Of a stretch of 20,424 nucleotides of DNA, positions 2,814 to 10,118 are shown in pieces. How positions within the stretch are numbered: position 1 is the stretch's first letter; the number at the start of each line of letters is the position of its first letter. The translations under genes were made by a program, and so were the position numbers. The notes below the pieces were generated by a model, which ran no database searches, had not been told where the DNA came from, and saw nothing but the letters and a program-made list of their open reading frames with translations. The stretch is from a virus, in IMG/VR virus record IMGVR_UViG_3300021961_000799, positions 1-20,424 of that record. The stretch is one strand, 5' to 3'.

Positions 2814-2841
2814 TTTTGACCTCCGTGGATGCTGGCGCGGG

Positions 2842-2946
2842 ATTGCCCTGTTAGCCGTAAAACCCCAGCTTGCTGCGCCACTGACGCGCCAGTGGCAGTA
2901 GCGCAGTGGCGCAGAATGCGCCGCTGGGTTTTTACTATAGGGCAAT
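2842..2946. other. 105-bp imperfect dyad around the iterons (candidate replication origin)
   Basis: Matching inverted arms are nested around a centre near 2894. ATTGCCCT at 2842-2849 pairs with AGGGCAAT at 2939-2946. GTAAAACCCCAGC at 2857-2869 pairs with GCTGGGTTTTTAC at 2923-2935 at 12 of 13 positions. TGCGCCACTG at 2874-2883 pairs with CAGTGGCGCA at 2904-2913. The centre holds GCCAGTGGC. Three successive arms in register make a large cruciform or RNA stem likely by design. A replication-initiation role is inferred from position (between primase-helicase and nuclease genes) and from the iterons. Confidence 0.6.
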
Positions 2947-3016
2947 TCAGCAGTGGCGCACTCAATTTGCGCCACTGGTGCGCCACTGAAACCACCTCTT
3001 GCATTCCAGTGGCGCA
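2874..3016. repeat. iteron-like cluster of CAGTGGCGCA repeats in both orientations
   Basis: The decamer CAGTGGCGCA occurs exactly at 2904-2913, 2951-2960 and 3007-3016. Its complement TGCGCCACTG occurs exactly at 2874-2883, 2968-2977 and 2979-2988. There is a one-mismatch copy at 2917-2926 and a partial copy at 2890-2897. The pair 2951-2960/2968-2977 forms a perfect 10-bp stem with a 7-base loop, and 2904-2913/2917-2926 a near-perfect stem with a 3-base loop. No T-run follows the stems in the minus direction, so these are not simple terminators. The cluster fills the only sizeable non-coding gap in the replication module and is a candidate origin or multi-site operator. Confidence 0.85.
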
Positions 3017-3018
3017 AA

Positions 3019-5319
3019 TCAATTTTGCTCTCCTACACGCCCTGTCGAGACCACACCTTTGCGGTCCTTCCGCTGGCTTTCACTCTTGTAAGTGACCTCT
3101 TCAAGAAGCCCTTCTTCCATCCATTTCTTCAGGATGGCCTTCGCCTGAATGTCGGTTTTCGCGTTCAAAGGGTCGCCAAATTTCTGCTGCATGATGACCC
3201 TGCCAGCCCAGCGATCCTTGTCTTGCGGACGCAGCGACCACTTCTCGCCGTTCTCTGGGCCTGCGTCGATCTTGTCCAAGATTTGATTGACCACCCGATC
3301 CGTCATGCCAGCCCACTGGTCAGGCAGCTTGTAGCCCGCCGCCACGCCGATCCATTCGTCATTGTCTAGCTTCACGCCAATCATGCGGCGGTAGACCTGT
3401 GCATCCGGCGGCGGTGCAAGGTTGGCCTTGCCGTCCGTCACCGAGAACAGCCCTCTGGCCTCGATCTCAGGTATGCCAAGCCGTGCCGCCTCGTCGGCTG
3501 ACACGCGGTTGATCACCCGTGCTGCCCGTGCTGCGCCGATCAGTGAGCCTGCGCCACGCACCGAGTCGATGTCGCTGTCCTGACCGTTGCCTTTGCGAAC
3601 ATGGTGAACCAGATGCACGGCAGCGTTGGTCTCGCGGGCAAGCCGCCGCAGCATAGCGACGACCACCTGAATACTCATGTTGGAGTTCTCGTTGACTTGG
3701 TGGACTGAGATGAATGGGTCAATGATGACCAGCCCGATGCTATGCTCTATGATCTTGTCCCGCATGAAATTGAGCAAGGCGTCATTCTGCTGAACGCCAT
3801 CCCTGCCCTCTGCTGCCAGCACGATCCCAATGTCATCCTCGCCATCCATGAACAAACGGCCAGCGATGTCTTCGTGCTTGACCTCATAATGCCGCATCGC
3901 AGCGGCCAGCCTCAACTCCATCTCAATGCGCGGGTCTTCTAGATTGAGCAGCCAGACGTTTGTCCGCTCTTTTACCGCCTCGTCCAGCAAAGCCCGCCCA
4001 GTTGCCACGGCCAGCGCCTCGATCATCAGCAAGCTGGATTTGCCGATCCCGCCTGCCGATGCTGTGACTGACAGATAGCTGCGGATGTGGTGATGGGCGT
4101 AAATCCAAGCCCGCTTTGGCAGGCTGGCCTCGTCGATGGGCGCAACTGGTGTCGGCCATGTCTGCTCGGCTGGCTCGGCCAGATCGACCATCGGCGGTAG
4201 ATCAGGCTCCTCCTCGGTCGGCAGGTCGTCGAAGTCATCGTAGTTGTCAACCGCCGACTGTTCCTCGATCTGGCGGTTGACCTGCTCAAAAGGACTAGGG
4301 CGGATTTCGTCGGCATAGGCGCGGACTGCTTTTCGCATATCGCCGCCATGCTCAAAATGACAGTAGAGATCGAAGGCGTCGCCCCAGCAATATGCCTCGC
4401 GCTGCTGGCCGATCCCAGCCGCCATGTCGCTGCCCGACAGGCTGACCCAATGTGTGCCATAGTCTCGCGTGGCAAACGATCCGCTGGTCTGATACGGGCT
4501 GCGGTAGTGGTCGCTGGCACCTTGTCGCTCGTAGCCATAGCGCAGGAGCGCGTCAGACACGTTATAACGGGCGTTAAACGCATCCACATGGTCAACATCA
4601 TCTGGCCTTGCAGCCGCCCTCTGAGCGCGTTCTGCGGCCCTCTGAGCGCGTTCCCGTGCAGCCTGCTCCTCGGCCATCTGCTCGCGCTGCTTGCTGAACA
4701 GCATATTCTGCCAGACGCGGCTCTCCTGCACGTTGAAATATTGCTCGCCACGATGCGGCAGGCCGTGGTAGAATAGCGGCTGGCCTGCGTCATCGCGGCG
4801 GGCTGGCGGCACGTTGGGCAGGAACACAGGCTGACCTGTGCGGGCCAACGCCGCATCACACTCAATGGAATGCTCGGCCCACATCAGGTCAAACAGGCTG
4901 GCCTGCACGGCGGCATAGTCGGTCCCGCTAACAGGCTCGGCCAGAGGTATGATGACGCGCCACTTCTGCTCCTCATGGCTGGCCCCAGCCGACGAATAGA
5001 ACAGCGCAGCGGAATTGCCCGTTAGGTCGGTGATGGCCGACTTTAGCTCGGTCAGGCTTGGCGAGCCTTTGTCAACGTCGATGCAGAGCAGCCAGTATGT
5101 GCCAGCCTCGCGCTGGCGGTTATGCGAGCGAGCGTCATGCTCGATATAGGTGGAGCCGATCACGAAGTCGGCATCGGCCTTATCCTTGGCCTGCGGAGTT
5201 TTGACCAGCTCGGCAATCTCACGCAGCGAGATGGTGTCGTATCGCTGGCCCTCACTATGTATCAGGGTGTCCCGACCGCCGTGGCCTAGTAGAAATTTCT
5301 GGTTGACTGCACTGCTCAT
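3019..5319 (-). CDS. fused primase-helicase (AEP-like plus RepA/RecA-fold ATPase)
   Basis: A 766-residue replication protein. The N-terminal region resembles an archaeo-eukaryotic primase: DARSHNR near residue 62 and the strand LLCIDVDKG at 77-85, whose spaced aspartates fit the catalytic DxD. Residues 206-240 are a charged coiled coil with a duplicated RAQRAA. CWGDAFDLYCHFEHGGD at 311-327 is a conserved-looking linker segment. The C-terminal half is a hexameric-helicase-type ATPase: Walker A GGIGKSS at 423-429, Walker B GLVIIDPF at 529-536, and HLVHHVRKG at 569-577 as the sensor-like strand. The last 100 residues resemble a winged helix. It lies between the SSB and the iterons and would prime and unwind phage DNA. 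There is a modest GAGGAA before the ATG. Confidence 0.85.
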   Translation of the reverse strand: MSSAVNQKFLLGHGGRDTLIHSEGQRYDTISLREIAELVKTPQAKDKADADFVIGSTYIEHDARSHNRQREAGTYWLLCIDVDKGSPSLTELKSAITDLTGNSAALFYSSAGASHEEQKWRVIIPLAEPVSGTDYAAVQASLFDLMWAEHSIECDAALARTGQPVFLPNVPPARRDDAGQPLFYHGLPHRGEQYFNVQESRVWQNMLFSKQREQMAEEQAARERAQRAAERAQRAAARPDDVDHVDAFNARYNVSDALLRYGYERQGASDHYRSPYQTSGSFATRDYGTHWVSLSGSDMAAGIGQQREAYCWGDAFDLYCHFEHGGDMRKAVRAYADEIRPSPFEQVNRQIEEQSAVDNYDDFDDLPTEEEPDLPPMVDLAEPAEQTWPTPVAPIDEASLPKRAWIYAHHHIRSYLSVTASAGGIGKSSLLMIEALAVATGRALLDEAVKERTNVWLLNLEDPRIEMELRLAAAMRHYEVKHEDIAGRLFMDGEDDIGIVLAAEGRDGVQQNDALLNFMRDKIIEHSIGLVIIDPFISVHQVNENSNMSIQVVVAMLRRLARETNAAVHLVHHVRKGNGQDSDIDSVRGAGSLIGAARAARVINRVSADEAARLGIPEIEARGLFSVTDGKANLAPPPDAQVYRRMIGVKLDNDEWIGVAAGYKLPDQWAGMTDRVVNQILDKIDAGPENGEKWSLRPQDKDRWAGRVIMQQKFGDPLNAKTDIQAKAILKKWMEEGLLEEVTYKSESQRKDRKGVVSTGRVGEQN
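4616..4653. repeat. 21-bp tandem duplication inside the primase-helicase gene
   Basis: GCCCTCTGAGCGCGTTC occurs at 4616-4632 and again at 4637-4653, a period of 21 bases that keeps the frame. It encodes the repeated RAQRAAE segment of the coiled-coil linker between the primase and helicase halves. It is probably a recent slippage duplication that changes linker length. Confidence 0.85.
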
Positions 5320-9043: not shown

Positions 9044-9138
9044 TGCCCCACCCCCAAGCCGTGCAACAGGACGATCAGAAGGAAGGGTATCAGGACGACG
9101 CACACGCCGCCGATGATTTCTCCGAATGTTGGTTTCAT
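9040..9138 (-). CDS. 32-residue single-pass membrane micro-protein
   Basis: The frame reads MKPTFGEIIGGVCVVLIPFL and ends in HGLGVGQ. Residues 8-27 are a continuous hydrophobic helix, enough to cross a membrane once. GGAGG lies eight bases before the ATG. The ATG shares ATGA with the upstream helix-turn-helix gene, and its TGA overlaps the ATG of the HD gene, so it fills the gap exactly. It sits in the early operon, away from the lysis cassette, so a holin role is less likely than modulation of a host membrane protein or exclusion of other phages. That role is inference. Confidence 0.7.
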   Translation of the reverse strand: MKPTFGEIIGGVCVVLIPFLLIVLLHGLGVGQ

Positions 9139-9671
9139 TGGTTATCCTCCGCAAAAACGTCCACGATCAGCTTGGCGGCATATTCCATGACGGTCATGCC
9201 GTCCGGCGTTTCATCGACCAGCCGCTGCACGATGCGATAGTTGCCAAGGCCATAGTGGAAATCATCCCTCGGCCCCAGCACGATGCCGCGCTCCCGCGCC
9301 AGTCTGTCGGCATAATAGGGCAGGCACCTCGGCTCACGGTGGGCCAGAACACGCGGATCGCGGCCACGCGGGTTGTTCCGCATCGACGTGATGTGGTGGT
9401 GAACGGACTGTTTGCTAATGCCCATTTCGTCGGCAATCTCCTGTGCGGATTTCCCCTCGACCAGCAGCCGATAGACCTCCTCGCGTTTGGCTCCCCATCG
9501 CCACGCGAGTCTGTCGTGATCCTCGGATATTTCGCCCATCACGCGGGCCATGTAGATGTGCTGGCGGACGTGTTCACGCGGGATGCCAACCGCCTTGGCG
9601 ATCTTGTCGTAGCTCACGCCCTCGTTGAAGAGCCGGACCACCTCGGGCCGGACTGTTGGATGCGCTCCCAT
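9135..9671 (-). CDS. DNA-binding protein with two helix-turn-helix units
   Basis: About 178 residues. Two similar helix-turn-helix segments follow each other: EVVRLFNEGVSYDKIAKAVG with IPREHVRQHI (about residues 10-40), and EVYRLLVEGKSAQEIADEMG with ISKQSVHHHI (about residues 65-95). Both have the G/S-x-x-x-I-A-x-x-x-G-I turn of the LuxR/sigma-region-4/resolvase type. The remaining 80 residues have no recognised fold (RCLPYYADRLARERGIVLGP is characteristic). It follows the XRE gene by a TGATG overlap, so it is probably part of the early regulatory pair. A GTG one codon upstream is a possible start. A terminase small subunit also uses such motifs, but the location argues for a regulator. Confidence 0.7.
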   Translation of the reverse strand: MGAHPTVRPEVVRLFNEGVSYDKIAKAVGIPREHVRQHIYMARVMGEISEDHDRLAWRWGAKREEVYRLLVEGKSAQEIADEMGISKQSVHHHITSMRNNPRGRDPRVLAHREPRCLPYYADRLARERGIVLGPRDDFHYGLGNYRIVQRLVDETPDGMTVMEYAAKLIVDVFAEDNQ

Positions 9672-9922
9672 CACCGCACCTCGGGATAAACTGTGACAAA
9701 CCCATCCTTCTCAATGTCAATCGGCCAATCAGTCGGCCTATAGCCATCGAGGTATGCTTGGATCAGCCGCACCATGCGCGGCGCGGGCTGGCGGGCTGTT
9801 GAGTTGTGCGGTGCCATTTCCAGCCGCCGCGTGGTCGTCGGATCGGTGTCCAGCATTTCCGCGAACTCGGACAGCGACAGGCCAAGTGCCTGCCGCGCCA
9901 GCTTGATGTCTTTATAGTCCAT
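9671..9922 (-). CDS. XRE-family helix-turn-helix regulator (Cro/CI-like)
   Basis: An 83-residue protein with KLARQALGLSLSEFAEMLDT (residues 7-26) followed by TTTRRLEM as the recognition helix. This is the XRE/Cro pattern of Q-ALGLS-EFA-ML-T-RR-E. A second helix pair (RMVRLIQAYLDGYRP) typical of small phage XRE proteins follows, and then a short beta tail. It lacks the C-terminal cleavage domain of CI, so it is not RecA-cleavable in the lambda way. AGAGGA precedes the ATG at 9922. It is the second gene of the early operon, near the 10132-10146 palindrome, which makes self-regulation likely by position. Confidence 0.8.
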   Translation of the reverse strand: MDYKDIKLARQALGLSLSEFAEMLDTDPTTTRRLEMAPHNSTARQPAPRMVRLIQAYLDGYRPTDWPIDIEKDGFVTVYPEVR

Positions 9923-10118
9923 AGTTGTCGTCCTCTGTGACTTCTTTGATCGCTTGCTCCATGCGGGCAATGGCATCCCATGCCAGCGCCAGATCGGTGC
10001 TGACCCACGATGGTCTGACGCCATGCCCGTAGTCACGGATCAGGCCGTCGATCTCGCGTTGCTTGCTGTGGATGTAGGCTTGAAGCCCGGCGATGTGGTC
10101 GGCTTTAGCTTTGTTCAC
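9912..10118 (-). CDS. small helical protein, first gene of the leftward early operon
   Basis: A 68-residue protein from a GTG start, reading MNKAKADHIAGLQAYIHSKQ, then WVSTDLALAWDAIARMEQAI, and ending EDDNYGL. It is mostly helical and charged. AAGGAG stands seven bases before the GTG; an ATG one base upstream is followed at once by a stop in its frame. It overlaps the XRE gene by 11 bases. As the first gene after the promoter it would be the earliest protein made. Function unknown. Confidence 0.65.
   Translation of the reverse strand: MNKAKADHIAGLQAYIHSKQREIDGLIRDYGHGVRPSWVSTDLALAWDAIARMEQAIKEVTEDDNYGL

Follow-up and report, generated by a model that had tools for sequence, protein, structure and literature searches.

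What is the role of the cluster of short repeats that lies beside the primase-helicase gene of this marine phage? The evidence assembled here, all of it drawn from sequence comparison and structure modelling, indicates that the cluster is very probably the origin from which the phage replicates. The window, as the term is used below, is the entire 20,424-bp IMG/VR contig (G000), which carries tail, lysis and replication genes, the majority of them on the minus strand. Since the ATG with which the downstream gene starts is found at 2811-2813, the true gap between that gene and the primase-helicase gene runs from 2814 to 3018. The 167-aa product of the downstream gene gave a single weak match, to a PHROG without assigned function, and an Rfam search of the window yielded no matches. 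Farther along, a gene at 9135-9674 (minus strand) encodes a 179-aa protein with two HTH-like segments, which matches many phage HTH and regulator families; it adjoins a transcriptional-regulator-like gene at 9671-10036.

The 10-bp word CAGTGGCGCA is present in six exact copies, three in each orientation, within 143 bp (2874-3016; Table 1), as had been reported in the first-pass annotation, which was made from the letters and open reading frames only. Two degraded copies had been counted there as well; the gap has three, two of them with one mismatch each and one with two mismatches. The word is not a general one in this genome: outside the gap there are no exact copies on the 20,424-bp contig (nor any of a reversed-pattern control), and at up to 2 mismatches it occurs 30 times contig-wide as against 32.7 expected. 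In the absence of any such enrichment, the signal is that of a local cluster. The impression that the arrangement is too ordered for chance was borne out by 200 first-order Markov shuffles, in which no 10-mer exceeded 3 copies per 180 bp, as compared with the 6 observed.

Flanking pairs of arms form a 105-nt dyad (2842-2946) around the inner iterons, with pair centres between 2893.5 and 2896, so that their being in register near 2894 is true to within about 2 bp. As single-stranded DNA the region folds much better than shuffled sequences (z about -8; -8.1 and -8.4), giving two iteron hairpins and one nested hairpin of 105 nt. Across the window subfamily the outer arms read ATTGCCCT/AGGGCAAT, ATCGCCTAT/ATAGGCGAT, TTCGCCCT/AGGGCGAA or GCCAACCC/GGGTTGGC; their sequence changes while pairing is retained, and complementarity has therefore been kept. 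A consensus fold of the dyad region in this subfamily has 44 pairs, 5 of them altered on both sides, a compensation that is supportive rather than conclusive given the small covariation term and the relatedness of many rows.

Table 1. Features in and around the repeat-bearing gap of the window
Feature	Positions	Strand	Remarks
Next gene, 167 aa	2310-2813	-	PD-(D/E)XK-like by eye; outside the putative origin
Gap with putative origin (iterons and nested dyad)	2814-3018		205 bp; from primase-helicase gene to next gene
Outer dyad arm ATTGCCCT	2842-2849	+	pairs with 2939-2946
Middle dyad arm GTAAAACCCCAGC	2857-2869	+	partner 2923-2935
Exact iteron CAGTGGCGCA	2874-2883	-	inner dyad arm, partner 2904-2913
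Degraded iteron CACTGGCGCG	2885-2894	-	2 mismatches
Degraded iteron CAGTAGCGCA	2896-2905	+	1 mismatch
Exact iteron CAGTGGCGCA	2904-2913	+	inner dyad arm, partner 2874-2883
Degraded iteron CAGCGGCGCA	2917-2926	-	1 mismatch; variant kept at the same place in relatives
Middle dyad arm GCTGGGTTTTTAC	2923-2935	+	includes T-run
Outer dyad arm AGGGCAAT	2939-2946	+	next to the TATAGGG half of a CCC-TATA-GGG palindrome that many relatives retain
Exact iteron CAGTGGCGCA	2951-2960	+	hairpin partner 2968-2977
Exact iteron CAGTGGCGCA	2968-2977	-	direct pair, 11-bp spacing, with 2979-2988
Exact iteron CAGTGGCGCA	2979-2988	-	second of the 11-bp direct pair; hairpin partner 3007-3016
Exact iteron CAGTGGCGCA	3007-3016	+	inverted copy adjoining the primase stop codon; hairpin partner 2979-2988
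Primase-helicase, 766 aa	3019-5319	-	putative iteron-binding initiator
Wing codons, residues 748-754 (SQRKDRK)	3058-3078	-	codon of residue 751 at 3067-3069
Primase-helicase domains			primase-like N-terminus; RepA-type AAA_25 helicase, residues 396-578; modelled winged helix, residues ~674-758

The helicase core of the 766-aa protein belongs to AAA_25 (E 2.4e-33) and matches RSF1010 RepA (1g8y) by profile with E 1.4e-13; 1olo/1g8y are also its best fold matches, for which alone the full-length model was used (mean pLDDT 61.5, good in parts). In an AlphaFold2 model of the C-terminal 189 residues, three helices and a beta-hairpin are predicted with block pLDDT of about 90 or more, and this domain is accordingly modelled as a winged helix, for which Foldseek gave weak winged-helix matches (best E 0.055). 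The N-terminus of the window protein is assigned as a primase from weak PHROG matches. At least three N-terminal modules (first 300 aa) are found joined to the same helicase and winged-helix part -- that shared by the window, L011, L039 and the CRP roseophages, that of L033 and L036 (Prim-Pol plus PriCT_2), and that of L019-L032 -- with no mutual similarity detectable by hhalign, although the alignments compared were shallow and give weak evidence for absence of homology. On the plasmids L135, L136 and L138 the arrangement is split, a separate toprim primase gene preceding the helicase gene.

About 190 loci from viral contigs, isolated roseophages and phage-plasmids were examined, and in nearly all of them a cluster lies 3' of this same gene. 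IMG/VR scans supplied 26 loci with the window protein as query, 80 with an alignment of the sister group and 80 of 485 matched relatives with an alignment of the helicase and C-terminal parts, some contigs recurring between scans, while a GTDB scan supplied two loci only. The cluster is present at the syntenic position in relatives both close (97%) and distant (46-62%), which is where the first-pass annotation had proposed to look for it. Exact CAGTGGCGCA follows the primase gene in L007-L009 (97% relatives), L010-L018 (62%), L033, L036, L039 and L041. It is shared by relatives at 97% and at ~62% primase identity, whose N-termini are of different kinds. More distant members have iterated words of their own (GGTGAGGA; AACTGTGG or AAGTGTGG; GGTGTGGA; GGTGGGGA; GGTGTGAT), as do the roseophages (TGTATAAA or ACTACAAA) and the alphaproteobacterial plasmids and phage-plasmids (GGTGGGGC, GGTGAGGA, GGTGACGC, AGGTGGGG). 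The word is lineage-specific and the layout is kept: one inverted copy is followed by two direct copies, spaced by 11 bp in most of the lineages listed, and a CCC-(A/T)-GGG palindrome is often present. In L214, L142 and L130 no cluster was detected in the sequence examined, and several other loci are cut by contig ends. Single hairpins containing the CAGTGGCGCA word in L034, L037, L038, L042 and L043 were set aside as unrelated, each being one terminator-like inverted pair.

The gene 3' of the cluster is not constant across the family. In L019, L020, L023, L039, L060-L063, L073, L087 and others, genes directly 3' of the primase stop codon are inserted before the iterons; they differ between loci, some being PAPS reductase-like by eye, and the site has the look of an insertion hot spot. 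In one relative of the window phage, L036, a short repeat that includes ACCTTCGGGGTGC also occurs nine times in direct orientation over ~190 bp (L036:9452-9644). A distant relative, Microcystis phage Mae-Yong1326-1 (OP028995.1, L049:6147-6684; 28% identity), has the wing DQRKERLG, with GACTGGCGCA iterons and a long hairpin 3' of a RecA-family ATPase gene. The primase-helicase family is present on circular plasmids as well; on the 39.7-kb circular plasmid pR24_3 of Microvirga terrae (NZ_CP102848.1, 5852-9044) an iteron cluster comes after a RepA-like ATPase gene. Among the annotated genes listed for the plasmid, this one and a toprim protein gene are the only two with a recognisable part in replication, and no further initiator can be recognised; pR24_3 is a candidate minimal replicon.

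Which part of the protein does the word follow? It co-varies with the C-terminal domain of the primase-helicase, and not with the N-terminal primase, the helicase core or the downstream gene. The four CRP roseophages are particularly informative: CRP-821 and CRP-831 carry TGTATAAA arrays and CRP-823 and CRP-811 carry ACTACAAA arrays, very similar in layout and orientation, and the helicase cores of all four are 99-100% identical, whereas the C-terminal 110 aa are 98-99% identical within the word groups and 67-68% between them. Their N-termini group differently from the words, 821 going with 823. When the CRP genomes were scanned in 80-aa pieces, the primase C-terminus and the adjoining gap were the only strong split by word in both directions. 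Similarly, in the clade of L051, L052 and L054 the iteron words differ, while identity is 90-94% in the helicase and 91-94% in the DNA beyond the gap. The N-terminal primase was rejected as reader of the word, since CAGTGGCGCA occurs with both the window-type and the L033/L036 N-termini, which have no detectable similarity, and CRP phages with related N-termini carry other words; the downstream gene was likewise rejected, as it shows no split by word in the CRP phages.

Within the C-terminal domain, the association comes down to the wing. In the window subfamily, a scan of 493 columns, using mostly newly fetched loci, found residue 751 alone to be perfectly associated with the base after GTG: Lys goes with GTG-GCGCA-type words in 33/33 loci and Arg with GTG-ACGCA in 25/25. 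The corresponding scan of the sister subfamily picked out 1 of 465 columns, in the wing, with phi=1.0 to that base (the next, at 0.91, is also in the wing), and there a wing Gln accompanies A in 22/22. Because the alignment of the wing between the two subfamilies is ambiguous by ~2 residues, it is safer to speak of the same wing than of the same position. Taken together, all 47 loci with a wing Gln or Arg have A as this base, and none has any other. On a helicase-core tree of 132 rows, built without the C-terminus, 10 changes are counted for wing Q/R and 10 for base A, and independent pairs agree in 8/8 cases (p=0.008), Q and R having been pooled after inspection of the data; with Q only, the result is 6/6 (p=0.031). 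The rule is incomplete, for RKGG wings go with T, though other K wings go with G. The pair L193 and L196 shows the change on a small scale: the proteins are 89% identical and the iteron regions share 172 of their 185 aligned bases; one base, at the same place in each, is altered in all five iterons alongside a change from QRKDR to QRRER, while the 1.1-1.2 kb between gene and cluster is merely 64% identical. From these comparisons residue 751 appears to read the base after GTG in the iteron, in which case K751 or R751 would set the preference for CAGTGGCGCA or CAGTGACGCA, respectively. We would go further only tentatively, the following being possible but somewhat short of probable: that the wing tip reads one base per iteron (A by Gln/Arg, G by Lys in the majority of wings, T by small or other residues), and that lineages switch all of their iterons together with the wing, so that otherwise similar phages come to have origin types incompatible with one another and perhaps escape origin-directed nucleases or competitors, as has been described in PLE satellites.

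We consider it highly likely that the cluster is a phage replication origin. Several primase-helicase monomers would use their C-terminal winged-helix domain to attach to the CAGTGGCGCA iterons, with the wing around residue 751 touching the base after GTG; this binding would bring to the origin hexameric rings of the RepA-type helicase together with the attached primase, and there the DNA would open around the nested dyad and priming would begin. An origin bound by the primase-helicase was one of two possibilities raised by the first-pass annotation, and comparative evidence, namely synteny and the co-variation of the word with the C-terminal domain, now supports it strongly. A turning point in GC skew, which had also been anticipated at an origin, was absent at the iterons of the window, of CRP-811 and CRP-821 and of three plasmids; as skew follows gene strand in the CRP phages, this test is uninformative and does not refute the assignment.

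The other possibility raised at that time was a cooperative operator, at which the primase-helicase or another phage regulator would bind the repeats and control the downstream gene, no origin being involved. The cluster does lie upstream of the next co-directional gene, and iteron binding can repress transcription in plasmids. The gap, though, has no promoter-like site, no copies of the word are found before the primase gene or elsewhere on the contig, and the wing of a helicase-primase would be an unusual repressor reader; moreover, the downstream gene varies and other genes are often inserted, yet the cluster still matches the primase wing. The operator has accordingly lost ground and is, in our judgement, improbable. 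Another reading is that the match between wing and word is a matter of physical linkage alone, some other phage protein (HTH or ribbon-helix-helix) being the one that binds the repeats. The wing codon of the window is ~50 bp from the gap, close enough for shared recombination to mimic co-variation, and the CRP phages exchange C-terminus and gap as a single block, so that the CRP co-variation, taken by itself, possibly arises from linkage alone, the C-terminal coding region adjoining the gap. Linkage as the sole cause is argued against by the many loci in which the wing-word rule is obeyed across 0.3-2.6 kb of genes between primase and iterons, L193 against L196 being the clearest case; repeated independent changes have also altered the same wing column, and no other CRP coding region splits as strongly in both directions, all of which makes another binder decidedly improbable.

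A further reading is that the dyad terminates transcription of the replication operon in both directions, with the repeats as a by-product; a terminator had been dismissed by the first-pass annotation on the grounds that no T-run follows. This was mistaken: the stem is followed by the T-run of GCTGGGTTTTTAC on the plus strand, with GCTGGGGTTTTAC as its counterpart on the minus strand, and a terminator-like site is called there. Such sites are nevertheless at chance level (1 called against 0.6 expected), and a terminator would leave unexplained why there are six copies, in both orientations, why two of them form a direct pair 11 bp apart, and why a protein residue co-varies with a specific base, so that as a full explanation it is very improbable indeed; a terminator may coexist with the origin.

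If the origin assignment is right, it provides both origin and initiator for a phage family that is widespread and largely marine (485 IMG/VR relatives matched); the main text of the roseophage paper on the CRP phages does not mention an origin of replication, iterons or repeats (PMC12629253). The classic question of how the specificity of an initiator and that of its many iterons come to change in concert would be made testable by changes of one residue and one base, and the origins, and possibly the compatibility groups, of uncultured phages could be typed by their iteron word from sequence alone.

Several known systems resemble this one in part. The C-terminal domains of SaPI Rep and of SCCmec Cch2 recognise iterons directly downstream of their own genes (PMC7581432). 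Clustered iterons likewise lie directly 3' of the initiator helicase gene in the window and its relatives, and comparison suggests that here, too, the C-terminal domain of the helicase sets iteron specificity; those helicases, however, are of the D5/DUF927 type, whereas the present one is a RecA-fold RepA/AAA_25 protein, usually fused to a primase, and its iterons are ~10 bp long, in both orientations, around a nested dyad. At oriV of RSF1010 three polypeptides, RepA, RepB' and RepC, are involved (reviewed in PMC4234260). The helicase of the window is of the RepA family by profile and fold, and primase, helicase and iteron binding probably come together here as well, but in a single 766-aa polypeptide with primase-like, helicase and winged-helix parts; the gap has strong hairpins, none of them identified as a priming site of the ssiA/ssiB type. 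The P4 alpha protein combines primase, helicase and a C-terminal winged helix that binds origin repeats in one polypeptide (reviewed in PMC4234260). Its likeness to the window lies in the fused primase-helicase (given the weak primase call) with a C-terminal winged helix and origin-type repeats. The alpha protein has a Toprim-type primase and its helicase is of SF3; here the helicase is RepA-type and the word is a different one. In pRN1 a 100-nt stem-loop located downstream of the replicase gene serves as the origin (PMC4234260), much as a stem-loop of 105 nt lies just 3' of the primase-helicase gene here, and ORF904 also has a C-terminal winged helix; there, however, the helicase is SF3 and there are no iterons, while the window has a RepA-type helicase and iterons. 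In PLE satellites, the available part of the published account (PMC8263062) describes initiator-origin modules that are swapped, possibly escaping an origin-directed nuclease, so that the DNA-binding domain of the RepA_N initiator and the origin co-vary as a swappable module as they do here; that family is unrelated, its iterons are semi-palindromic and ~30 bp long, and no single-residue rule is described in that part of the account. Because its helicase belongs with RSF1010 RepA, the present system is not filed under the SaPI/Cch2, P4 or pRN1 families; by analogy, the cluster most likely works in the manner of SaPI Rep, Cch2 or P4 alpha, with a position and stem-loop like those of pRN1.
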